Below are positions 4,267 to 42,843 of a stretch of 64,000 bases of DNA, piece by piece. This DNA comes from Taibaiella sp. (GTDB lineage: Bacteria > Bacteroidota > Bacteroidia > Chitinophagales > Chitinophagaceae). Numbering within the stretch: position 1 is the first letter of the stretch; each line of letters begins with the position of its first letter. The notes under the pieces are model-generated. The model worked only from the letters and a program-made list of their open reading frames with translations. It was not told the origin of the DNA and did no database searches. The translations under genes and the position numbers were made by a program. Location: positions 1 to 64,000 of the forward strand of contig JAHBTQ010000010.1 in assembly GCA_019638495.1 (NCBI GenBank), written 5' to 3'.

Positions 4267-5976
4267 CTATTCAATCTTGAGTTTGCGATAGAATGCTTTT
4301 TCCGCATAGGACACTTTAAGAAGGTATAAGCCGGTTGATAAATTTTTTAAGGTCAGTTGCGATGTGGCTTGAGTACTGGCGTAGGTGGCGAGGACACGGC
4401 CCGATACATCGGAGACTGTGATCGTAAAGCCGCCAGTACAGGATTCACACGCGACTGTGCAAGCCGCGGAGGCAGGATTTGGGAAAAGGCTTATGCCGTC
4501 GTGGTTATTGGTATTTTGTGTGACCGAAGATACGCAAGGAGTCTCCTGGGCATGAATATTGAAAGTATGTTTGCTTACTGCGCAGCCCGATATGCTGGTT
4601 ACAACAAATGAGCCGCTGCTACCTACAGTTCGGCTGTTCTCGGTGCTTCCATTGCCCCATAGCGAATAAGGGAAAGGGCTCACGAGCGTAACACTATCTA
4701 CATTTTCAAAACACACAATTGTGTCAGAAGCAGATGTGATAGTATCCCCAACCGGTGTGGGTAATTGATAAAGATTACCTATACCTAATTGCGCTGCGGT
4801 CAGGGCTAGGAGAGGAACGGCATCCGGCTGAAAGGTACACAGGGTACCGGTAGCATTGGGGGTAGCGATTCGGCTTAGAGATGAAGGTGAATTGCCCCAT
4901 CTGAAGTATATTTTATTATCCGGAGCCAGACGAAGGTCACTGAAGTTCCCATATGCACGCGCCACTACGTATTTGGAAGCTTGTATTGTAGCTGTATCGG
5001 TGATGTCAAATTGTACGAGCTCGCTTGTATCGCCGTCCAAATGTGTGATATAAAGCTTCTTGCTGTCCGGTGAAAACTCAAGGCCATAGGTTCTTTTGCC
5101 AGTTGATATCCGCACGCAGTTAGATAGAGTGCCGGTTAAAGCATCAAAATCAAACAGCTCTGAACCCAACTGGGTCGGGACAAGCGAGAAAGTGCCCGTC
5201 GGTGAGAATACGACTGTTTGCGAGTTAGTGGAGGCTACTTTGCTGTAATCGGGAGAGCATTTCAGTACACCCGCCCCATATGCCCAGAGGCCGGACATTT
5301 CTCCGCAATGGGAGATTACAGGAGTCGTATCAATACCCCAAGCATTGACGTTATACGCTTCAAACACGGGCTCCCCAAGTTTGTGAACGATGATCCATAA
5401 GTCGCAATTCGCCCCAGGGATAGCAATCATTCGCTCCGTGAGACCCGAAGCGAGATGTATGCCAGACATGCCAGGTACGATATCTCCGTGACCTCCGTTT
5501 AAGTCCATGTCAACAATGCTATAATAGAGGTTAACCGCAGATGTGTCTGCTCCGCTAATAAAATAATCAAAATTCTGAAGAGAGAAAATGTAATATTTGG
5601 TGGGGCCGCCTTCTGATAATGTGCTCAAAACCGGAGCGATAAGGGCTCCTTGGGAGCTACTCTGTGTGGAAAATGGGCAAATCGTGTCACCATTAGGCAT
5701 TACAGTATGTGTGCTATCCCATACGCTGCGGCCGTTAGTGTAGAACAAAAGCTTGCCATTACGATCACACACGCTGGCGCACCCTTCCGCACTAACTAAC
5801 TCTGTATGTAACGCCACCGGGCTGCCGGTGGCAAAACTGAGCCCAGCAAATACACCTAATGCCCACTCTCTGTTTTGCGGGGAGTTATACTGCCCATGTA
5901 CGGCAATTGAAAACAACAAAAGGGAAAAGACTTGCGGGATGATTTTGAGGAGACGGGTAATCTTTACAGAAAACAT
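4267..5976 (-). CDS. T9SS cargo protein with beta-propeller-like body
   Basis: A 569-residue protein with a signal peptide (hydrophobic residues about 15-27, cut after VHGQ), then a motif block around QYNSPQNREW and GKLLFYTNGRSVWD. The body repeats short strands such as SKVASTN, GLEFSPDSKKLYITH and LRLAPDNKIYFRW, typical of a beta-propeller. A cysteine-containing segment near residue 430-480 leads to a type A T9SS sorting domain: ISLFPNPAS, then DVSGRVLATY and LSTGLYLLKVSY, ending KLKIE. It is expected on the cell surface or secreted. A truncated relative starts at 39744 with the same QYNSP and GSPV blocks. No promoter box was found. Confidence 0.85.
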   Translation of the reverse strand: MFSVKITRLLKIIPQVFSLLLFSIAVHGQYNSPQNREWALGVFAGLSFATGSPVALHTELVSAEGCASVCDRNGKLLFYTNGRSVWDSTHTVMPNGDTICPFSTQSSSQGALIAPVLSTLSEGGPTKYYIFSLQNFDYFISGADTSAVNLYYSIVDMDLNGGHGDIVPGMSGIHLASGLTERMIAIPGANCDLWIIVHKLGEPVFEAYNVNAWGIDTTPVISHCGEMSGLWAYGAGVLKCSPDYSKVASTNSQTVVFSPTGTFSLVPTQLGSELFDFDALTGTLSNCVRISTGKRTYGLEFSPDSKKLYITHLDGDTSELVQFDITDTATIQASKYVVARAYGNFSDLRLAPDNKIYFRWGNSPSSLSRIATPNATGTLCTFQPDAVPLLALTAAQLGIGNLYQLPTPVGDTITSASDTIVCFENVDSVTLVSPFPYSLWGNGSTENSRTVGSSGSFVVTSISGCAVSKHTFNIHAQETPCVSSVTQNTNNHDGISLFPNPASAACTVACESCTGGFTITVSDVSGRVLATYASTQATSQLTLKNLSTGLYLLKVSYAEKAFYRKLKIE

Positions 5977-6218
5977 AAAGGCATATTTTGATAATGAAAT
6001 TAAGAAACTATATCTATTTGCGGGTGGATTTTATTCAATCGATGCTGTAGCCTTTACCCGCGTATTGGCACATACTTCCTGACGCTCAGCCCGGCGCAAC
6101 TTATTCCGACGACAGGAGTGGTCACCGGGATTTAGTCCGGCGCGAAGAAATGCTATCATATCTCTGCCTTCAATGAGGGTCTCTGACCGCCATCACCCAC
6201 CCATTCCCCCCAAAAACT

Positions 6219-6226
6219 TACCTTTG
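6219..6226 (+). promoter_or_regulatory. -7 promoter box of pruA
   Basis: TACCTTTG matches TAnnTTTG and lies 34 bases before the ATG at 6261, leaving a short leader. The rest of the 5977-6260 spacer shows only a pair of CCGGCGC words (around 6090 and 6138), with no gene. Confidence 0.55.
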
Positions 6227-6260
6227 CACTTCTGAAATATAAACGCATAACTGATTTATA

Positions 6261-7910
6261 ATGAATAACGCATATTTTGATTTTGCAGAACCGAAGAATG
6301 AGGTGGTACTGGGTTACGCACCGGGTAGTGCAGAGCGCAAGGCGCTAAAGGCGGCACTTGCTGAGATGAAGGGCCAGCTCCGTGACATACCCATGTATAT
6401 AGATGGGGAGGAGGTGCGCAGCGATGTGAAGCGCGAGATCCGTCCGCCGCATGAAACAGCACACCTGCTGGGCCACTACCACGAGGGCAGCGAGGAACAT
6501 GTACACGATGCAATTGACGCTGCACTGGCAGCGCGCGAAAAGTGGGCAGCTATGAACTGGGAGCACCGTGCATCCATCTTTATGAAGGCGGCAGAGTTGC
6601 TGGCTACCAAGTACCGCTTTCGCATGAATGCAGCAACCATGCTGGGCCAGAGCAAGAATGCCTATCAGGCAGAGATAGATAGCGCTTGTGAGCTGATAGA
6701 CTTCCTGCGCTTTAACGTATACTTCCTGAGCAAGATATATAAGCAGCAGCCAATATCGCCGGTGGGTATGAACAACCGCATGGAGTACAGGCCTCTGGAG
6801 GGCTTTGTACTGGCGGTGACACCGTTCAACTTTACAGCCATAGGCGGCAACCTGCCTACCAGTGCAGCTATGTGTGGTAACGTAGTGGTGTGGAAACCTG
6901 CAAACACGCAGATATACAGTGCGAGTGTATTCATGGAGATATTGATAGAGGCGGGCCTGCCGGCAGGTGTCATAAACCTGATATACCCAAGCGGTCCGGT
7001 AGTGGGTGATATCTGCTTTGCACACCCATCATTTGCGGGCGTACACTTTACGGGTTCTACGGGTGTGTTCCAGCACATGTGGAAGGCGATAGGTGATAAC
7101 ATTAGCCGCTACCGCAGCTATCCACGCATAGTGGGTGAGACGGGTGGTAAGGACTTTGTGTTCGCGCATCCATCCGCCAATGTAGATGCTGTAGTTGCGG
7201 CGCTGGCTCGTGGTGCGTTTGAGTACCAGGGGCAGAAGTGCTCGGCTGCTTCGCGCGCATACCTGCCGGCTAACCTGGCTGATGAGATAAAGAGCAAGTT
7301 GGTAGCGGAGATAAAGACCATGAAGCAGGGCATAGTGGACGACTTCGGCAACTTTGTGAATGCGGTCATAGATGAGAAAGCATTCAAGAGCATTACAAAG
7401 TATATAGACGGCGTGAAGAATGGCAATGGAGATGCCAAAATATTGGTAGGCGGCGGTTATGATAGCAGCAAGGGATGGTTTATAGAGCCTACGGTGATAG
7501 AGACGACAGACCCGCACTATGTAACGATGTGTGAAGAGATCTTTGGCCCTGTGCTGACGATATATACGTATGAGGCGGACATGTGGATACAGACGCTGGA
7601 GGTGCTGGATGAAACTTCTCCATATGCGCTTACGGGTGCTATCTTTTCACAAGACCGCTATGCAATAGAATACATGACCAAGGCGCTTGTAAACGCCGCT
7701 GGAAACTTCTATATCAACGACAAGCCTACGGGCGCAGTGGTGGGGCAACAGCCATTTGGCGGGGCTCGTGCCAGCGGCACCAACGACAAGGCGGGATCAA
7801 TACTGAACCTTTATCGCTGGCTGAGTGCGAGGACAATAAAGGAAACGCATGTACCACCAACGGACTACAGGTATTCGTTCCTGAATGAAGACAAAACCCC
7901 AAACCAATAA
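6261..7910 (+). CDS. pruA: L-glutamate gamma-semialdehyde dehydrogenase
   Basis: A 549-residue aldehyde dehydrogenase that oxidises glutamate semialdehyde (from proline or ornithine) to glutamate with NAD+. The general base is E293 in VGETGGKD and the catalytic thiol is C327 in GQKCSAASR, 34 residues apart as expected. The NAD-binding part shows VTPFNFTAIGGN and HFTGSTGVFQ. The length and N-terminus (about 550 residues, with an 'EPxNE...YaPGS' start) match the monofunctional, mitochondrial-type enzyme and not the bifunctional PutA. The proline dehydrogenase partner is not in the window. A good hairpin terminator follows the stop. Confidence 0.95.
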   Translation: MNNAYFDFAEPKNEVVLGYAPGSAERKALKAALAEMKGQLRDIPMYIDGEEVRSDVKREIRPPHETAHLLGHYHEGSEEHVHDAIDAALAAREKWAAMNWEHRASIFMKAAELLATKYRFRMNAATMLGQSKNAYQAEIDSACELIDFLRFNVYFLSKIYKQQPISPVGMNNRMEYRPLEGFVLAVTPFNFTAIGGNLPTSAAMCGNVVVWKPANTQIYSASVFMEILIEAGLPAGVINLIYPSGPVVGDICFAHPSFAGVHFTGSTGVFQHMWKAIGDNISRYRSYPRIVGETGGKDFVFAHPSANVDAVVAALARGAFEYQGQKCSAASRAYLPANLADEIKSKLVAEIKTMKQGIVDDFGNFVNAVIDEKAFKSITKYIDGVKNGNGDAKILVGGGYDSSKGWFIEPTVIETTDPHYVTMCEEIFGPVLTIYTYEADMWIQTLEVLDETSPYALTGAIFSQDRYAIEYMTKALVNAAGNFYINDKPTGAVVGQQPFGGARASGTNDKAGSILNLYRWLSARTIKETHVPPTDYRYSFLNEDKTPNQ

Positions 7911-10211: not shown

Positions 10212-11048
10212 ATGACAACGGATAGTGAACTGAAAGAACTGGTGAGGCAGAAGTATAGCGAAATAGCCTTGCAGGATAAGGAAACCAATGCAGCATCATG
10301 CTGCGGTGCGGGAGGTTGTAGCACGGAGGTGTACAACATAATGAGCGACGACTACACAAAACTGGAGGGTTACAACCCAGATGCTGACCTGGGGCTGGGG
10401 TGCGGTCTGCCTACCGAGTTTGCCGCTATTAAGCCCGGCGACGTGGTAATAGATCTGGGTAGTGGCGCAGGTAACGATTGCTTTGTGGCACGCTCGGCTA
10501 CAGGACCCACAGGCAAGGTGATAGGTATAGACTTCACCGAGGCCATGATAACGAAGGCGAGGGCCAATGCCGAGAAGCTGGGCTTCAATAATGTGGAGTT
10601 TCGCCTGGGCGATATAGAGAAGATGCCCGTAACGGCAAAGGTGGCGGACGTGGTGGTAAGTAATTGTGTGCTGAACCTGGTGCCCAATAAGCGGAACGTG
10701 ATCAACGAAATATTCCGTGTACTGAAATCGCGTGGACACTTCAGTATATCAGACGTGGTGCTGGTAGGCGAATTGCCCCAAAACCTGAAGCAGGCGGCAG
10801 AGATGTATGCAGGCTGTGTAAGCGGAGCTATACAGAAAGATGAATACCTGGCTCTGATAAAGGAGGCCGGCTTTGAAGCGATAACTGTGCAAAAAGAAAA
10901 GCCGATATACATACCGGATGACATTCTGCGCAACTATCTTAGCGAGCAGGAAATAGCAGACTTCCGCAACAGTGGAACGGGTATCTACAGTATTACCGTG
11001 TTTGGCCGCAAGCCGGATTGTTGCGATCCTGAAAAAGGATGCTGCTAA
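10212..11048 (+). CDS. arsM: Arsenite S-adenosylmethionine methyltransferase
   Basis: A 278-residue methyltransferase that converts As(III) to methylated arsenicals. The SAM site is VIDLGSGAGND (residues 79-89), then VIGIDFTEAM. Arsenic-binding cysteines appear at C36, C64, C152 (in SNCVLNL) and C202 (in GCVSGA); the spacings 36-64 and 152-202 fit characterised ArsM enzymes. Extra cysteines occur at 30-31 and in a C-terminal CCDPEKGCC tail, which may hold arsenic or supply thiols. It stands between arsC and the aquaporin gene, 10 bases before the latter, and shares their regulation. Confidence 0.93.
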   Translation: MTTDSELKELVRQKYSEIALQDKETNAASCCGAGGCSTEVYNIMSDDYTKLEGYNPDADLGLGCGLPTEFAAIKPGDVVIDLGSGAGNDCFVARSATGPTGKVIGIDFTEAMITKARANAEKLGFNNVEFRLGDIEKMPVTAKVADVVVSNCVLNLVPNKRNVINEIFRVLKSRGHFSISDVVLVGELPQNLKQAAEMYAGCVSGAIQKDEYLALIKEAGFEAITVQKEKPIYIPDDILRNYLSEQEIADFRNSGTGIYSITVFGRKPDCCDPEKGCC

Positions 11049-11058
11049 AAGAACAGAA

Positions 11059-11706
11059 ATGAGAAATTATGTATCGGAGCTTATAGGGACTTTCGCGCTG
11101 GTGTTTTGTGGCACCGGCGCGATTGTTATTAACCAGCAATCGGGCGGGGCCATAACGCATGTGGGCGTTGCCATTACGTTTGGGCTTATAGTCATGAGCA
11201 TGATATATGCGCTTGGCAGTGTATCGGGGGCGCATATGAACCCGGCTGTGAGTATTGCCTTTGTGGTGGCAAAACGATTTCCGGGAAAGGAGTTGCTGCC
11301 CTATGTGTTGAGCCAGGTAGCCGGTGCGGTTATGGCAAGTGGTACGTTACGGCTGCTGTTTCCTGCCAATGAATTACTCGGCGCTACATTGCCCGCAGGC
11401 AGCGACATGCAGAGTTTTGTGTTGGAGTTGCTACTCACCTTCTTCCTGATGCTCGTAATAATACAGGTGGCCACAGGTAGCAAGGAGCAGGGTATGTTTG
11501 CCGGGCTGGCTATTGGGGCTACAGTGGCGCTGGAGGCAATGTTCGCCGGGCCCATTTGTGGCGCATCTATGAACCCTGTGCGCTCGCTGGCACCGGCGCT
11601 CTTATCCGGTCACACGGAGCATTTATGGATATACCTGGCGGCGCCTGTCGCCGGCGCTGTGCTGGCAGTATTTACATGGATGTACCTGAATAAGAGCAGG
11701 GTTTGA
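11059..11706 (+). CDS. MIP-family channel (aquaporin/glyceroporin) of the ars operon
   Basis: A 215-residue protein with six hydrophobic helices and the two half-helix signatures of aquaporins: SGAHMNPAVS (first) and GASMNPVRS (second, with NPV in place of NPA). Aquaglyceroporins conduct undissociated arsenite; in Sinorhizobium meliloti, AqpS in an ars operon works as the arsenite exit route in place of ArsB. Position 10 bases after arsM and the absence of any arsB or ACR3 gene nearby suggest the same role here. The longer in-frame ATG at 10972 lies inside arsM, so 11059 is chosen. Confidence 0.88.
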   Translation: MRNYVSELIGTFALVFCGTGAIVINQQSGGAITHVGVAITFGLIVMSMIYALGSVSGAHMNPAVSIAFVVAKRFPGKELLPYVLSQVAGAVMASGTLRLLFPANELLGATLPAGSDMQSFVLELLLTFFLMLVIIQVATGSKEQGMFAGLAIGATVALEAMFAGPICGASMNPVRSLAPALLSGHTEHLWIYLAAPVAGAVLAVFTWMYLNKSRV

Positions 11707-11736
11707 TTTCTATAGGACGTTCGAATTGCAACTAAA

Positions 11737-12474
11737 ATGAGATTGTATATTTCTTCATTACTGCTATTGCTTGCTGTAGTGGCTCATGCGCAGCGTTCGC
11801 AGCATTATGGCATATTCCCCACCATAGACCACAGCGGCACCCTAACGGACAGGCTGGGTTATAGTTTCTATTATTTCGGAGGGGCAAACCTGTTGAACAA
11901 ACGTGATGATGGGATAAATGAACCTTCAGAGTTTTTCGTCTTTTATTCAGAGCAGGCGTTTACGTATAAAATGGGAAAAGGGTTTTCACTCGCCGGAAGC
12001 TATGTATATGAGCGCCAGCACCCGATGGGTGATAACTACCGGAATGAACACCGCTTTTACCTGCAGGGCGCTTACTCATACAACCTCGGCAATACCACGC
12101 TGAGGCATAGGTTGCGCTTCGATGGAAGATTTATCGGGGACAGAATAACCGGTGACTATCCTTATACCCATCGGCTACGATACTTGTTTGGTTTGTCTGC
12201 GCCACTTCAGGGCAAGCAAGGAAGGTGGTACCTTAATGCCTACAACGAGTTCTTCTTCAACACACATAGCAGTTCGCCCGTCTTATACGCCGAAGATTGG
12301 GCATATGCGGGTGTTGGTTATAAGACACAGAAAGCCGGGAATTTTGAGGTCGGGCCATTGTATATGTTCTGGATGAACAGCGGTGGCCGCAGGGACGTTA
12401 CTAACTTTTACTACCTGCAACTGACGTGGGCCACCCACGTCGATTTCAGGAGAAAAAATGTGGAATCCCGGTAG
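11737..12474 (+). CDS. Outer-membrane beta-barrel, DUF2490-like
   Basis: A 245-residue protein with a signal peptide (MRLYISSLLLLLAVVAHAQ). The mature chain alternates aromatic and polar residues in strand-like blocks (FSLAGSYVYER, HRFYLQGAYSYNL, HRLRFDGRF, WYLNAYNEFFF) and closes with FYYLQLTWATHVDF, the look of an 8- to 12-strand outer-membrane barrel of the DUF2490 family. It begins 30 bases after the aquaporin gene and may be the last ars operon member, but no arsenic role is known for the family. Confidence 0.7.
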   Translation: MRLYISSLLLLLAVVAHAQRSQHYGIFPTIDHSGTLTDRLGYSFYYFGGANLLNKRDDGINEPSEFFVFYSEQAFTYKMGKGFSLAGSYVYERQHPMGDNYRNEHRFYLQGAYSYNLGNTTLRHRLRFDGRFIGDRITGDYPYTHRLRYLFGLSAPLQGKQGRWYLNAYNEFFFNTHSSSPVLYAEDWAYAGVGYKTQKAGNFEVGPLYMFWMNSGGRRDVTNFYYLQLTWATHVDFRRKNVESR

Positions 12475-12515
12475 GAGCCGGAGCCCCAACGCAGATAACT
12501 GTTTCTAGCGTACCG

Positions 12516-12950
12516 TTAGAAGAACGGAGCATACGCGCCGAATACTACTAACGCAATAGCCACCACGCCCATGGTAAAGCCCAGCACAGCCATCATTCTG
12601 CCGCTGCAGAACCTCTTCATGCCTATGAAGCCGAATGCTACCGCGGGGATAGCGAAAACGGGTGCCAGAAAGCCAAGAATGCCAAACAGGAAGGCAAATA
12701 GCCCTACAGTGCCATTACGCGCCCAACGTACGAACAGGCCAGAAGGAGATTGTGACTTCTGACTAAGCTTGTTTAAAAATTGCTCTGCCGACGCCGACGC
12801 CCTTTCTGACGATGTCAAATTAGAAAGTGCGGCCGAAGTGGACGCTGATTGTGTAGTCGCCTGCTTTTTGACTGCAAATCCCGCATGTGCAGGTGCAGAG
12901 GTGCAAGTGAGCAAAAGCGCGGACAAGAGGCAAAGCAGGATGTTTTTCAT
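12516..12950 (-). CDS. DUF4190-type membrane protein with signal peptide
   Basis: A 144-residue protein starting MKNILLCLLSALLLT with cleavage near APAHAG. A low-complexity Ser/Ala linker (residues about 30-75) leads to two membrane helices: TVGLFAFLFGILGFL...GFIGMKR and MMAVLGFTMGVVAIALVV, the two-helix layout of DUF4190. The function is unknown. The start at 12950 is set by the signal peptide and a TATATTTG box 21 bases upstream; an upstream in-frame ATG at 13076 would add 42 atypical residues. Confidence 0.75.
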   Translation of the reverse strand: MKNILLCLLSALLLTCTSAPAHAGFAVKKQATTQSASTSAALSNLTSSERASASAEQFLNKLSQKSQSPSGLFVRWARNGTVGLFAFLFGILGFLAPVFAIPAVAFGFIGMKRFCSGRMMAVLGFTMGVVAIALVVFGAYAPFF

Positions 12951-37686: not shown

Positions 37687-38937
37687 TTATGCTGGTACTG
37701 ATTCCTTTTTCCTGTAGAAGAGGGTATTGGTATTGCCGGGCCTGAATATTTCGGCTGCTGTTTCCTGCAGCGAGGCTGCGGTTACGGCATCATACTTGTC
37801 CCACTCTGCATTTATCAATGCGGCATCACCTATCAGCTCGTAGAACGCAAGATTATTTGCCCGGTTCAGCAGGCTCATATCTTCAAACGCTATCATCGAT
37901 TCTATCTTGTTCTTTGCCTTGCGCAGTTCCTGCTCCGTTACGCCCTCTGCCGCCAGCGTTGCCATCTCATGCTCCACAGCAGCATTGGCTTCTTCCAGCG
38001 TCCGGCCCTCGCGCAGTTTGCCTTCCACCACTATCAGACCGGGGTCCAGGCTGCCTGTGTGGTAGCAGTTGATGTTGCTGAACAGTTGATCTTCCTTCAC
38101 CAACTTGCGGTAGAGCCGCGATGAATGTCCGCTGCCCATGATCTCGGTTATCAGGTCTGCCGCATAATAGGTAGGGTGCAGGCGGCCCTGTATGTGCCAT
38201 GCTTTATACAGTGCATCTAGTGGCACATTGGCCTCTGTTTCTTTAAGCCTTGGCTGTTCCTGGCGCGGTTCGCTCGTGAGCCGGCGAATGTATTTATCAC
38301 CCGCAGGTATGCCGCCAAACCATTTTTCTGCCAGTGTTTTCACCTGCTCTGTCGTCACATTGCCCGCCACACATAGTATAGCATTGGTAGGGTTATAGTG
38401 TTTCTTAAAGAATGCCTTTACATGCTCCAGGTCGGCGGTTTCTATCTGCTCCAGGTTTTCACCTATTGTGGGCCACATATAGGGGTGAGTGGTGTAGGCC
38501 ACCTTGCGCAGCAGGTGCCACGCATCGCCATATGGCTTGTTCAGGTAGTGCTCTTTAAACTCTTCGCAAACCACCTTGCGCTGCACGTCCAGGCTCTTTT
38601 CGCTGAAGGCCAGCGACAGCATACGGTCGCTTTCCAGCCAGAAGGCCGTTTCCAGGTTCTGCAGCGGCAGTTGAATATAGTAGTTCGTTATGTCGTTGGT
38701 AGTATAGGCATTGTTCTCGCCGCCTGCCATCTGCAGCGGCTCGTCATACTCCGGTATGTTCACGCTGCCGCCAAACATCAAGTGCTCAAACAGGTGGGCA
38801 AAGCCCGTGCGGCTGCGCTCCTCATCCCGTGCGCCCACATCATACAGCACATTTATGGCCGCCATAGGTGTGGCCGTATCCGTATGCACCAATACCCGCA
38901 AACCATTAGCAAGCGTAAACCGTTCAAATTGTAACAT
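37687..38937 (-). CDS. M16-family zinc metallopeptidase
   Basis: A 416-residue peptidase of the insulinase/mitochondrial-processing-peptidase family. The inverted zinc motif is H48-L-F-E51-H52 in FAHLFEHLMF, and the third ligand is the glutamate in FSEKSLDVQRKVVCEE. The second half-domain (about residues 180-400) repeats the fold with HYNPTNAILCVAGN. It lacks a signal peptide, so it is cytoplasmic, unlike many exported M16 proteins. It is the first gene of an operon with the nitronate monooxygenase gene. The start at 38937 avoids nine extra residues of an earlier in-frame ATG at 38964, which would overlap the promoter box. Confidence 0.9.
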   Translation of the reverse strand: MLQFERFTLANGLRVLVHTDTATPMAAINVLYDVGARDEERSRTGFAHLFEHLMFGGSVNIPEYDEPLQMAGGENNAYTTNDITNYYIQLPLQNLETAFWLESDRMLSLAFSEKSLDVQRKVVCEEFKEHYLNKPYGDAWHLLRKVAYTTHPYMWPTIGENLEQIETADLEHVKAFFKKHYNPTNAILCVAGNVTTEQVKTLAEKWFGGIPAGDKYIRRLTSEPRQEQPRLKETEANVPLDALYKAWHIQGRLHPTYYAADLITEIMGSGHSSRLYRKLVKEDQLFSNINCYHTGSLDPGLIVVEGKLREGRTLEEANAAVEHEMATLAAEGVTEQELRKAKNKIESMIAFEDMSLLNRANNLAFYELIGDAALINAEWDKYDAVTAASLQETAAEIFRPGNTNTLFYRKKESVPA

Positions 38938-38961
38938 AGATGTTCCTTTTAAAAGGGTGGT

Positions 38962-38969
38962 CAAAGTTA
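38962..38969 (-). promoter_or_regulatory. -7 promoter box of the M16 peptidase operon
   Basis: Minus-strand TAACTTTG, 24 bases upstream of the ATG at 38937. The edge of repeat copy A lies 58 bases further upstream. Confidence 0.5.
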
Positions 38970-39026
38970 ATGGAAAATGGGTGGGGAGTGTGAATAGGCA
39001 AAATGCTCACGTCGACCTGCTGGTCA

Positions 39027-39225
39027 AGCCGGGTCTTTTTGGGCTTAGCAGCGCATAGAAGGGACCAGGCGACATGGAAGAACTGTCACCCAAGGTTGGA
39101 CAGAAGCTTTATCTTTATTTCATAGTTGTTTCGGCGACGGCAACTTACTTCGTCTTTTGTAAGTCATCGCCGGCGGGTCTCGCCACACACAGGGCTAAAC
39201 GGTGAAGACCCGCCAGGGACAGGAA
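39027..39225 (+). repeat. Double-hairpin repeat, copy A (long form)
   Basis: Homologous to copies B and C from AGCCGGGTCT to GGGACAGGAA, but with 44 extra bases after TTTATTTCAT, bounded by a repeated CAT (39121 and 39165). The second hairpin GGCGGGTCT/AGACCCGCC is intact (39172-39180 with 39206-39214); the first is diverged and re-forms as CTGGTC/GACCAG (39020-39025 with 39063-39068). It includes a 43-codon reading frame at 39074-39205. It fills most of the 330-base gap before the next gene. Confidence 0.85.
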
Positions 39226-39267
39226 CCCGAACACACTTTGGAATTTTGGTAATTTAATTTGGTGAAA

Positions 39268-39723
39268 ATGCTAGTTGAAAATAAAGTGATTAGGGAAATT
39301 GATCTACCTCAAACATTACATGAAGAGTTAGTGGTTAATAACTCTGTTGTAATGAAACTGAATATGCCAGGCGGCGCCTGTAAAAGCATGGTGAAAATTA
39401 TGAACTCAATTATTCATGATTTTGTTGCAGTCGGAAGGTTCTTCGAACGAGGCTTGGAAGTGTCCAATTGCATTTTTATTAATAGTGTTTCTTTTGAGGC
39501 GGGTGGTCATAACGACATCGATGCCGAAATTAGAATTGAAAACAATGTCTTTAAATGTTTTGTTGATTTTTATGATGCGCAGTACCACGGCCCGGTAACT
39601 TTTAAAAATAATATTTTGCTCCAGGGAAGTAGTTTATTAGGAAATATTGGTACTCCAATGGCGACCCTTTTTGATGCTGGGTTAGTAAATGAGAGCAATA
39701 TCGGAAACTTGCATATTGATTGA
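39268..39723 (+). CDS. Orphan protein with beta-helix-like repeats
   Basis: A 151-residue cytoplasmic protein without signal peptide. After a short charged start it reads as short strands of the right-handed parallel beta-helix type: IMNSIIHDFVAVGRF, LEVSNCIFINSVSFEA, IRIENNVFKCFVDFYDA, GPVTFKNNILLQGSSLLGN, each turn ending near N. The codons are visibly AT-richer than those of the flanking M16 and fbp genes. No family is recognised; beta-helical immunity-type proteins have this look, but that is a guess. It lies directly after repeat copy A and 20 bases before a truncated gene. The in-frame TTG at 39259 is an unlikely start. Confidence 0.55.
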   Translation: MLVENKVIREIDLPQTLHEELVVNNSVVMKLNMPGGACKSMVKIMNSIIHDFVAVGRFFERGLEVSNCIFINSVSFEAGGHNDIDAEIRIENNVFKCFVDFYDAQYHGPVTFKNNILLQGSSLLGNIGTPMATLFDAGLVNESNIGNLHID

Positions 39724-39743
39724 TTGTGTATAATTATATATTT

Positions 39744-39945
39744 ATGCGTTCGGCTAAAAAACTAACATTTGTAGTAGCTTTTATATTGTGTAAAGTATAT
39801 TCCCACGCCCAATACAATTCCCCCCGCAACAATGTGTGGACAGCTTTAAAAAGGGTATCACTGGATTTCAACAGTGGTAGCCCGGTTTTTGATACGTCAG
39901 CTATTTGGTTGGGTGGCGGCACGGCAGCGGTATCCGATACTTTCC
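39744..39945 (+). pseudogene. Truncated T9SS cargo gene (N-terminal fragment)
   Basis: The ATG at 39744 starts a signal peptide (MRSAKKLTFVVAFILCKVYSHA) followed by QYNSPRNNVW, then a GSPV block and GTAAVSD. This matches the start of the intact protein encoded at 4267-5976 (QYNSPQNREW, GSPV, GCASVCD) in order and spacing. Homology stops at DT, exactly where repeat copy B begins (39946); the frame then runs into the repeat and stops at 40028. The remaining roughly 500 codons, including the sorting domain, are absent downstream. This is a gene remnant cut by the repeat. Confidence 0.8.
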
Positions 39946-40110
39946 CTCGTCCTAGCCGGGTCTCCTATAGCATAGCCCGGTGCGTAGCAGGGACCCGGCG
40001 ACAGGGAAGTACTGTCACCCAAGGTTGAACAGAAGCTTTATCTTTATTTCATCACCGGCGGGTCTCGCCACACACAGGGCTAAACGGTGAAGACCCGCCT
40101 TGGACAGGGA
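39946..40110 (+). repeat. Double-hairpin repeat, copy B
   Basis: A 165-base unit. Hairpin 1: GCCGGGTC (39955-39962) with GACCCGGC (39992-39999). An AT-richer middle follows (AAGCTTTATCTTTATTTCATC). Hairpin 2: GGCGGGTCT (40057-40065) with AGACCCGCC (40091-40099). It is nearly identical to copy C, offset by 910 bases with no length change. It begins inside the truncated T9SS gene. The start codon of the internal reading frame has become AGG (40003-40005). Confidence 0.9.
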
Positions 40111-40306
40111 AACGCAAGGGTATGCGTGAGCTTTCTTACTACCTGCGGGCAATAGTGCCCTGAATTCCGTTCATTGAACGGCTTATATTCGCAGTACCTG
40201 ACGCCCTTCGGAAAATCAGGAACAACGGCGAAATGGAAAACGGAACGCAAACCCAAATTTGTTTTCCAATTTGGCGAATATTAAAAAAACAGTATTCTTA
40301 GTGTTT
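40111..40306. other. Non-coding spacer with small hairpins
   Basis: No gene seen. Three short inverted repeats follow each other: GGGCA/TGCCC (40147-40160), CCGTTC/GAACGG (40167-40181) and CCTGA/TCAGG (about 40197-40220). The 3' half of the truncated gene was looked for here and not found. Confidence 0.4.
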
Positions 40307-40840
40307 ATGAAACGGCATTTCTTTATTATTCTAATATTATGTCATTTTGGCCTTTCTGTTGGATGTCGAAAGTTCTGCAAAGACATGGAATTATCCGTAA
40401 AAAGAAACGCGTATTCGGGGACGCTGAAGACGGATGGTTACTATTTTGAGGCTGCTGATGACACCTCAAAATATTCGGAAATATTTTTTTTATATCGAAA
40501 CGGCATATTGCAAGGGGGATATAGTGAACTGGTGGAGAAAGCGGAAACTGGTACTATTACAATTGATAACGTTCAACGTAAACAAATAAAATATTACTGG
40601 GGCGCTTTTAATATCGATGCAAGTGAATTGCAAATTGAAAGCTGGCTACCTCTGTATGCAGGTTGTTTAAGAACAAAATTGCGAAAAGGACGGGTGCTGG
40701 ATGATACTACATTTCTTATAACCAAGGTGGTGCTATTTGAGCGGAAAGGCAAAGTGTCAAGTGAATTCGATGTCAGTGACACATTTCATTTCCATGCGAC
40801 ATTGCAAAAGCCTGACAGCACTAATGATTTTATTAAATGA
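40307..40840 (+). CDS. Orphan lipoprotein
   Basis: A 177-residue protein with a lipoprotein signal peptide: MKRHFFIILILCHFGLSVGC, lipobox LSVG-C. The mature part has LKTDGYYFEAADDTS, IFFLYRNGILQGGYSELV, IKYYWGAFNIDASELQIESW and a closing strand region TFHFHATLQ, a small beta-rich fold like lipocalins. I do not recognise a named family. Codon use is AT-richer than in the surrounding housekeeping genes. It is framed by repeat B (about 200 bases before) and repeat C (15 bases after its stop). The ATG at 40307 begins the signal peptide; the earlier in-frame codon at 40259 adds a needless leader. Confidence 0.7.
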   Translation: MKRHFFIILILCHFGLSVGCRKFCKDMELSVKRNAYSGTLKTDGYYFEAADDTSKYSEIFFLYRNGILQGGYSELVEKAETGTITIDNVQRKQIKYYWGAFNIDASELQIESWLPLYAGCLRTKLRKGRVLDDTTFLITKVVLFERKGKVSSEFDVSDTFHFHATLQKPDSTNDFIK

Positions 40841-40855
40841 CCAAATCTTTGCAAT

Positions 40856-41020
40856 CTCGTCCTAGCCGGGTCTCCTATAGCATAGCCCGGTGCGTAGCAG
40901 GGACCCGGCGACATGGAAGTACTGTCACCCACGGTTGAACAGAAGCTTTATCTTTATTTCATCACCTGCGGGTCTCGCCATGCACAAGGCTAAACGGTGA
41001 AGACCCGCCCGGGACGGGAA
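40856..41020 (+). repeat. Double-hairpin repeat, copy C
   Basis: A 165-base copy in the same orientation as B, about 95 percent identical by eye. Hairpin 1 is perfect (40865-40872 with 40902-40909). Hairpin 2 has lost its first pair (TGCGGGTCT, 40967-40975, with 41001-41009). A 26-codon frame (ATG 40913 to TAA 40993) is present. A -7 box starts four bases after its end. Confidence 0.9.
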
Positions 41021-41024
41021 ATGC

Positions 41025-41032
41025 TATATTTG
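41025..41032 (+). promoter_or_regulatory. -7 promoter box directly after repeat C
   Basis: TATATTTG ends five bases before the ATG at 41038, so a transcript would start at or next to the start codon. The -33 region would fall inside repeat C. Confidence 0.5.
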
Positions 41033-41037
41033 AGTTT

Positions 41038-41568
41038 ATGAGTAAAGGTTGCCAGAGAAAAATCCTGATACTAATAACCTTTTTTCAAACCTTGGTTAGC
41101 CATGCACAAAATCAAGACCGGGCGTGGCTGCCTAAAGAATATGTATCGGCTATAAGCCATGGAGATACGACAGCTTACAAAAAATTGCAGCTGTTTACTG
41201 GTTTTATGCGGGATAGTAAGGGGAAACTTTTTCTGTTGACATATGGCGGTGAGACTACTCCCGTGAGGACAAAACGTATGCTGGATGACGGTAAGGTGAA
41301 ACTGCAGTTGTTAATCACAAAATTTCCAATTAACCTGATGTATAATAGTCGGCACATTGCGGATAGCATTGCGAAATCGACGGTATATTTTTCTCAATCC
41401 GGTAATACAGCCGTTTTAGAGGTAGTAAGCGGAAATCAAAGGAATGAATACGTTTTTGTAGATCATGACGGTGATTACCATTTTAAGAATATCAGGGAGT
41501 CGCTTGCTCACCTTCGCAACAAGTATAACATCCATAACGGACCGCAGGCTATAAAAATAGAAAGGTGA
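41038..41568 (+). CDS. Orphan secreted protein
   Basis: A 176-residue protein with a signal peptide (ILILITFFQTLVSHA, cut before QNQD). The mature chain is alpha/beta mixed: WLPKEYVSAISHGDTTAYKKLQLF, GKLFLLTYGGETTPV, STVYFSQSGNTAVLEVV, NEYVFVDHDGDYHFKN and a basic tail QAIKIER. No family is recognised. Third gene of the repeat-bounded series, starting 17 bases after repeat C, on the same strand as the other orphan genes. It may be transcribed as a leaderless mRNA. Confidence 0.65.
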   Translation: MSKGCQRKILILITFFQTLVSHAQNQDRAWLPKEYVSAISHGDTTAYKKLQLFTGFMRDSKGKLFLLTYGGETTPVRTKRMLDDGKVKLQLLITKFPINLMYNSRHIADSIAKSTVYFSQSGNTAVLEVVSGNQRNEYVFVDHDGDYHFKNIRESLAHLRNKYNIHNGPQAIKIER

Positions 41569-41628
41569 TATACTGTATTCGTTGTGTATGCACAGTTACT
41601 CAAAGCGAGTATTGTCTGCAAACTAAAA

Positions 41629-41676: not shown

Positions 41677-42696
41677 TTACACCGTCTGCGGTGCCTTCAC
41701 AAACTCCAGCGCCTTTTCAACCATGGTCTTAGAACCTATGAATATGGGCACGCGTTGGTGCAGTTCTGTTGGCACTACGTCCAGTATGTTTGTGGTGCCG
41801 GTAGATGCCTTGCCGCCTGCGGCCTCCATGATGAAGGCCATTGGGTTGCACTCATATTGCAGGCGCAGCTTGCCATTGGGGTTGCTCTTGTCACCCGGGT
41901 ATATGAATATGCCGCCCTTTATCAGTGTGCGGTGCATGTCTGCCACCATAGAGCCTATGTAGCGCTGCGAGTAGGGGCGTCCTTCTTCCTTATTGCTTTC
42001 CATACAATAGCTCAGGTAAGACATCATGCCTTCGTCATACTTCACGCTGTTGCCCTGGTTTATGGAGTATATCTTGCCCTTCTCAGCACATTTCATATTG
42101 GGGTGAGACAGGCAGAACTCGCCGATAGAAGGCTCCAGCGTAAAACCGTTCACACCCAGCTTGGTAGCATACACCATCATCGTGCTGCTGCCATAAATGA
42201 TGTAGCCCGCAGCTACTTGCTTATTGCCAGGCTGCAGAAAGTCTTCCTTGGTACATGGGGTGCCAATCGGGCTCACCCTGCGGTAGATGGCAAATATGGT
42301 GCCTATAGATGCATTCACATCAATGTTTGATGAACCGTCAAGCGGGTCAAATAGTACTACGTATTTTGAGTTGTGCGAGTAGGTGTCTTCGTATACCAGG
42401 TGGTCATCGTTCTCTTCCGATGCTATGCCTGCGCACTCGGTACAGTTCTTTAGTATCTGAATCAGCGTTTCGTTGGCAAACACATCCAGCTTCATCACTT
42501 CTTCGCCCTGTACGTTGGTAGCGCCGTGCTTACCCAGTATATCTACCAGGCCTGCTTTGCGCACTTGTTTATTGATGATCTTACCTGCCAGCCCCAGGTC
42601 GCGCAGCAACGCTGAGAGGTCGCCGGTGGCCTGTGGAAATTTTCTTGTCTCCTGGATGGTAAACTCATCCATCGTAATCAGTTTGCTCTGTGACAT
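41677..42696 (-). CDS. fbp: Class I fructose-1,6-bisphosphatase
   Basis: A 339-residue class I FBPase, the gluconeogenic enzyme that hydrolyses fructose-1,6-bisphosphate. Metal and substrate motifs: GIASEENDD (metal glutamate), [13 protein letters not shown] (the hallmark), [31 protein letters not shown], and [32 protein letters not shown] is the natural start at 42696; the ORF's upstream ATG (42744) crosses the promoter box. Monocistronic, with a hairpin terminator. Confidence 0.95.
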
Positions 42697-42721
42697 ATGA
42701 CGCGCTAAGTATTTTGACCTG

Positions 42722-42729
42722 CAAAAATA
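42722..42729 (-). promoter_or_regulatory. -7 promoter box of fbp
   Basis: Minus-strand TATTTTTG, 25 bases upstream of the ATG at 42696. Confidence 0.45.
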
Positions 42730-42843
42730 CCACCTTGCCGGCAAAGATGGGTGTATTATATGCCCATTTTCCTGTTTTTGTGAACTATATATTTTTGATT
42801 GGTTTCTATGTAACTAACATTACCTACATATGCGAAAGGTTAT

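Follow-up and report, generated by a model that had tools for sequence, protein, structure and literature searches.

CGTC-tagged REP doublets, very probably of the REPIN/BIME type, alternate with accessory genes in a Taibaiella insertion hot spot

In the window, which is the whole 64,000-nucleotide stretch of Taibaiella sp. contig JAHBTQ010000010.1 that we analysed, three same-strand copies of a 165-base repeat alternate with AT-rich genes, confirming what the earlier note had described. The repeat is very probably a REPIN/BIME-type element, a doublet of two CGTC-tagged REP hairpins. As for the array as a whole, we favour, with some reserve, the reading that accessory genes accreted at a hot spot and that recombination between REP doublets built the alternating order. 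The feature is real and the identity of its repeat is explained; a function as a cassette system is unproven.

The first copy occupies 39022-39223 on the plus strand, with a left REP at about 39019-39081 (+) and a right REP at 39162-39224 (-), which score 25 and 53.7 bits with model R2. The second copy lies at 39946-40111 (+; REPs at 39945-40010 + and 40047-40109 -) and the third at 40856-41020 (+; REPs at 40855-40920 + and 40957-41019 -). The three places had been located correctly before; the ends of the first two copies were adjusted here and those of the third are unchanged. Over 165-166 bp, the second copy matches the third at 94-95% identity. Copy 1, segments of which are 74-95% identical to the other two, reaches ~200 bp because its spacer holds a 48-base palindromic insert (~39124-39171), of which no second copy was recognised. 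Within the window the array copies are 84-93% identical, compared with 51-69% against copies elsewhere, and the window has three occurrences of the 22-mer AGAAGCTTTATCTTTATTTCAT, where shuffles lead one to expect none. Each copy consists of two outward-facing hairpins, with the stems GCCGGGTCTCC..GGGACCCGGC and GGCGGGTCTCG..GAAGACCCGCC, and an Rfam search of the window gave no match. Between the second and third copies there is also a hairpin repeat of another family (40158-40233, +), which has further copies at C1:1236889, C6:107741, C7:176372, C5:624468 and C6:425629, the C5 copy being ~0.9 kb away from two RAYT-like genes in tandem. At locus L152 (G000:C5:620000-632000, positions 5248-7553), two RAYT-like genes ~1.5 kb apart share 300-base stretches of 90% identity and have TIR-like ends TTCCGCCGCTGTTGGTG..CACCAACAGC, resembling a duplicated REP/TIR transposase unit.

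The spread of REPIN/BIME elements is ascribed to RAYT, an HUH tyrosine transposase acting on single-stranded DNA. The repeat has the plan of such elements, with two REP hairpins in inverted (head-to-head) arrangement, each with an unpaired 5' CGTC tag, separated by a spacer of ~50 bases, and with copies dispersed in intergenic sites. The inverted pair with its tags at the outer ends was observed in all three window copies and also in copies on contigs C5, C6 and C1. A single-hairpin model was built from 24 sequences, and the consensus TTCCGTC-nn-AGCCGGGTCTCC..GGGACCCGGCG is common to 24 hairpins from seven genomes. GTC is invariant in 24 of 24 in this set, whose members were partly picked by the tag itself, and the full tag reads CGTC in 20 and TGTC in four. 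The element differs from REPIN/BIME elements with RAYT in its tag, since the GTAG/GTGG of GTAG-type REPINs is not present in these hairpins, in the absence of a cognate RAYT from the host genome, and in that its three copies here interleave with accessory genes in a single orientation.

The tag invites comparison with the CGTC REP superfamily described by Di Nocera et al. in 2013 (PMC3733652), who list CGTC REPs in Bacteroidetes, report them to be without associated transposase genes, and give as superfamily features a stem of 8-9 bp opening with A-T pairs, a loop of 4-5 bases and a CCA tail. Our element shares with this superfamily the unpaired terminal CGTC/TGTC tag, the head-to-head dimers and the dispersed intergenic sites. 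However, its stem does not open with A-T pairs, its loop measures ~25 bases (short in some relatives), and its tail reads approximately CATCArGG rather than CCA. Because stem, loop and tail differ, we file the element as CGTC-tagged but outside the four families of PMC3733652. A further difference lies in the partner, as the present hairpins flank RAYT genes whereas that study found no transposase partner.

In the sister species G021, four hairpins of the repeat type surround a 192-aa RAYT, which matches NF047646 (E 1e-13, 51.3 bits, cut-off 80) and PF01797 (21.5 bits, cut-off 23) significantly but below the cut-offs. Orthologs of this RAYT with 56-64% identity occur in G034, G012 and G018, each with inverted hairpins of like plan on its flanks, and the HUH and catalytic tyrosine motifs, NH[VL]H and Y[IM]HxNP, are kept in all four proteins. 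Since the hairpins are of the same type as those flanking RAYT in sister species, we assign the element to the REP doublets of REPIN/BIME type, and the suggestion that the repeats are mobile-element DNA is supported. PMC6006769 describes a Bacteroidetes TnpA-REP subclass 2.6 (RAYT group 5) flanked by atypical, non-GT[AG]G hairpins. The proteins found here are like it in being Bacteroidetes RAYTs with NHxH and YIHxNP-like motifs and in having non-GT[AG]G flanking hairpins, a likeness to the subclass description rather than to a subclass profile.

No close ortholog of the G021 RAYT was detected in the host genome, where the best match has 27% identity. The host's own RAYT-type genes (on C1, C10, C12 and C5) were considered as partners of the repeat and rejected, other hairpins being found near each. 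With the cognate RAYT in sister species and not in the host, the repeat copies here are, judging from gene content, probably fossils or able to act only in trans. Neither PF00589 (tyrosine recombinase) nor PF01797 (Y1 transposase) has a match on the contig holding the window, and PF00589 matches in the host genome are confined to contigs C5 and C9. The earlier note had seen no integrase or transposase in the window, which for these two families holds for the whole contig, and its view that any enzyme must act in trans is likewise borne out. The alternation of repeats and genes in one orientation, together with a bottom strand that folds into a long hairpin (z -4.1), would also suit an integron-like system with attC-type sites. 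This we regard as hardly credible, as the repeat ends have CGTC tags instead of GTTRRRY/RYYYAAC cores, RAYT genes have these same hairpins on their flanks, and no integrase was found near. An attC identity for the repeat was accordingly rejected, since its ends do not fit and the RAYT association contradicts it.

A search of the host genome for the repeat, as the earlier note had proposed, revealed divergent copies elsewhere, in total a small family of 26 hairpins at ~19 loci under the single-hairpin model. Of 35 genomes in the genus, only the host, G021 and G034 have the exact hairpin pattern, and the GenBank records matching it belong to Flavipsychrobacter-type and Chitinophagaceae MAGs; three matches in Streptomyces/Planomonospora were taken as chance occurrences in GC-rich DNA. 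Five pairs of neighbours lie less than 2.5 kb apart, versus 0.15 expected under random placement over the whole chromosome. Arrays on C5 and C6 and a pair at C1:1052-1053 kb likewise enclose same-strand genes, and the flanks of the C5 and C6 arrays are rearranged among relatives. Single REPs without cargo are also common, such as the element at C2:117597 downstream of an SAH hydrolase gene, around which no REP was detected in three relatives. The orientation of the repeats relative to neighbouring genes, a check the earlier note had called for, proved non-random, with 26 of 36 hairpins in four genomes lying downstream of a same-strand gene (p = 0.006; genes called by a simple longest-ORF rule). 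Known REPs also favour the 3' ends of genes with a same-strand downstream bias (PMC3733652), so the pattern is partly ordinary and orientation alone is weak evidence.

Other members of the family have accessory genes as neighbours. In L060 (G000:C5:500000-519000, positions 10503-12776), a 2.1-kb module encoding a 296-aa protein, a DUF4325 STAS-like protein and a PIN-like protein has a REP doublet on either side, the two in the same orientation, and a type IIG restriction gene nearby. In G017, the doublets at L176, L177 and L179 stand beside genes of toxin-antitoxin type (ParE/RelE-like on visual inspection, PIN according to Pfam), which suggests that this REP type marks accessory islands.

The inserted block (38990-41570, borders approximate) lies between genes for an M16 peptidase (37687-38964, -) and fbp (41677-42744, -), which together with the gene adjoining M16 keep their synteny in a large part of the genus. 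The fbp-M16 gap spans 2.7 kb in the window versus about 60-205 bp in nine relatives, the nearest included, in a comparison of one genome per species; the block is absent from the nearest relatives, and these empty sites support the proposal of a hot-spot insertion. Its right end is without a repeat. The gap is filled in other species too, by a ParE-type toxin pair in G005 and G020 and by nucleotidyltransferase/HepT-type genes in G015 and G001, and no REP of the window type was detected in the gap of these four genomes. Because other species fill it repeat-free, the M16-fbp gap is a hot spot for insertion whether the repeat is there or not. The same observation favours independent insertion, in which genes entered a tolerant gap by ordinary horizontal transfer and doublets hopped later into the spacers, the repeats playing no part in gene movement. 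We hold this to be a genuine possibility, albeit one we would put at well below even. It gains from the frequency of cargo-free single REPs and from the preference of REPs for 3' gene ends (PMC3733652), and it fits most of the facts that fit accretion. The clustering of the hairpins, which is far above random, speaks against it, though insertion limited to tolerant islands might give as much.

Four genes or gene fragments, all on the plus strand, make up the cargo. The first, o39259 (39259-39723, ~151 aa), encodes a beta-helix-like accessory protein with a 50% identical homolog in G017 and no Pfam family. It is followed by a 5' fragment of a gene for a T9SS-type secreted protein (39735-39944), in which homology stops at 39941, right beside the second doublet. 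As this is four bases before the start of copy 2 at 39945, the copy marks a real junction, and its truncation of a gene is what late, independent insertion would produce. The third, o40259 (40307-40840, 177 aa), encodes a lipoprotein predicted to be mostly beta, with five homologous genes in four relatives, and the fourth, o41038 (41038-41568, 176 aa), a small secreted protein with a 32% identical homolog in G029. The close spacing noted previously is correct, the stop of o40259 at 40840 lying 15 bases before copy 3 and the end of copy 3 at 41020 lying 17 bases before o41038. The array genes have a GC content of 36-42% versus 50-56% in the flanking genes (36.3, 37.8 and 40.7% for the ~151-, 177- and 176-codon genes and 42.4% for the truncated gene), in line with the AT-richness reported for them. 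A Pfam search of the four ORFs found no family match, PADLOC and NCBIfam searches of the window cargo gave nothing useful, and AlphaFold models of o41038 (pLDDT 72) and o40259 (pLDDT 79) had no PDB match at E 0.001. The label of orphans therefore stands as far as Pfam families are concerned and falls with the homologs in other species of the genus; by sequence homology, the cargo is drawn from genus-level accessory families.

The strongest evidence for a durable link between the repeats and these genes comes from locus L168 of G017, a different locus at which two homologs of o40259 and one of o39259 occur together. Decayed doublets in one orientation stand before, between and after these genes (5927-5954, 7182-7270 and 7787-7902; E 2e-4, 5e-17 and 1e-16 by BLAST with a G017 doublet as query). 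Two families of cargo homologs thus recur with co-oriented repeats, as the idea of a cassette system had implied, and two loci in two species that interleave homologous cargo with co-oriented doublets argue against independent insertion. In contrast, seven other loci with cargo homologs had no adjacent REP under model R2, with which species-specific REPs may be missed; one of them, L174, has a REP ~3 kb away. That most cargo-homolog loci have no REP beside them is what independent insertion would lead one to expect. Of the proposal of an undescribed cassette system, the recurrence of cargo homologs with repeats in G017 survives; its novelty is not supported, as the repeat belongs to the REP doublets and has a recognisable RAYT partner in sister species, and the repeat-free filling of the same gap and the seven loci without an adjacent REP tell against it.

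At L169 (G029:C29, positions 5498-7693), a gene for an Rhs-core protein with a Tae4 C-terminus precedes homologs of both o41038 and the T9SS fragment, the o41038 homolog starting 28 bases after the gene of the Rhs protein that ends in this amidase domain. The locus is a candidate toxin-immunity neighbourhood and suggests an immunity role for the cargo homologs. This linkage would agree with an orphan-immunity array of the kind named rAID (recombinase-associated acquired interbacterial defence), in which a recombinase gathers immunity genes and the repeats serve as recombination sites. rAID arrays are described as short, co-oriented, AT-rich genes with conserved intergenic sequence and a defining recombinase (PMC12247911), and the co-oriented genes of ~151, 177 and 176 codons with 36-41% GC, separated by conserved repeats, fall within the published range of 100-300 codons and less than 41% GC. 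Here, however, a REP doublet that has a RAYT partner forms the intergenic sequence, the family also has REPs outside arrays of this kind, and no tyrosine recombinase is linked to the array or present on the contig. With a single Rhs linkage and a putative immunity function, we consider a rAID-like array quite improbable.

The accretion that we favour could have proceeded as follows, its mechanism and direction being offered tentatively, at somewhat less than even confidence. A block of accessory genes would be acquired in the M16-fbp hot spot, and incoming DNA carrying a REP doublet would recombine with a resident doublet, either through homologous recombination or through the joining of single-strand ends by RAYT, leaving the new gene between two direct copies of the doublet. 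Serial accretion of this kind would yield the alternation and the shared orientation of the array, and accretion between doublets would account for the common orientation, the similarity of copies within the array and the differing cargo. A bolder reading is that CGTC-tagged REP doublets are, or once were, exchange sites which gather accessory genes, possibly orphan immunity genes, into co-oriented arrays by means of a dedicated Bacteroidota RAYT that is also the missing transposase of CGTC REPs. We think this unlikely; if true, the array would be a counterpart, built on REPs, of rAID or integron arrays.

The 2013 description of CGTC-tagged REPs knew of no dedicated transposase for them, and for this reason a RAYT flanked by CGTC-tagged REPs is of interest. 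Hairpins with the same tag surround RAYT in four species, and, provided that they may be classed as CGTC REPs, purified protein could now be used to test the question of a transposase for that type. Should REP doublets help to gather accessory genes, REPINs would have a role beyond their own spread. If neither the RAYT pairing nor the gathering holds, the case would still show REPs piling up in accessory-gene hot spots.
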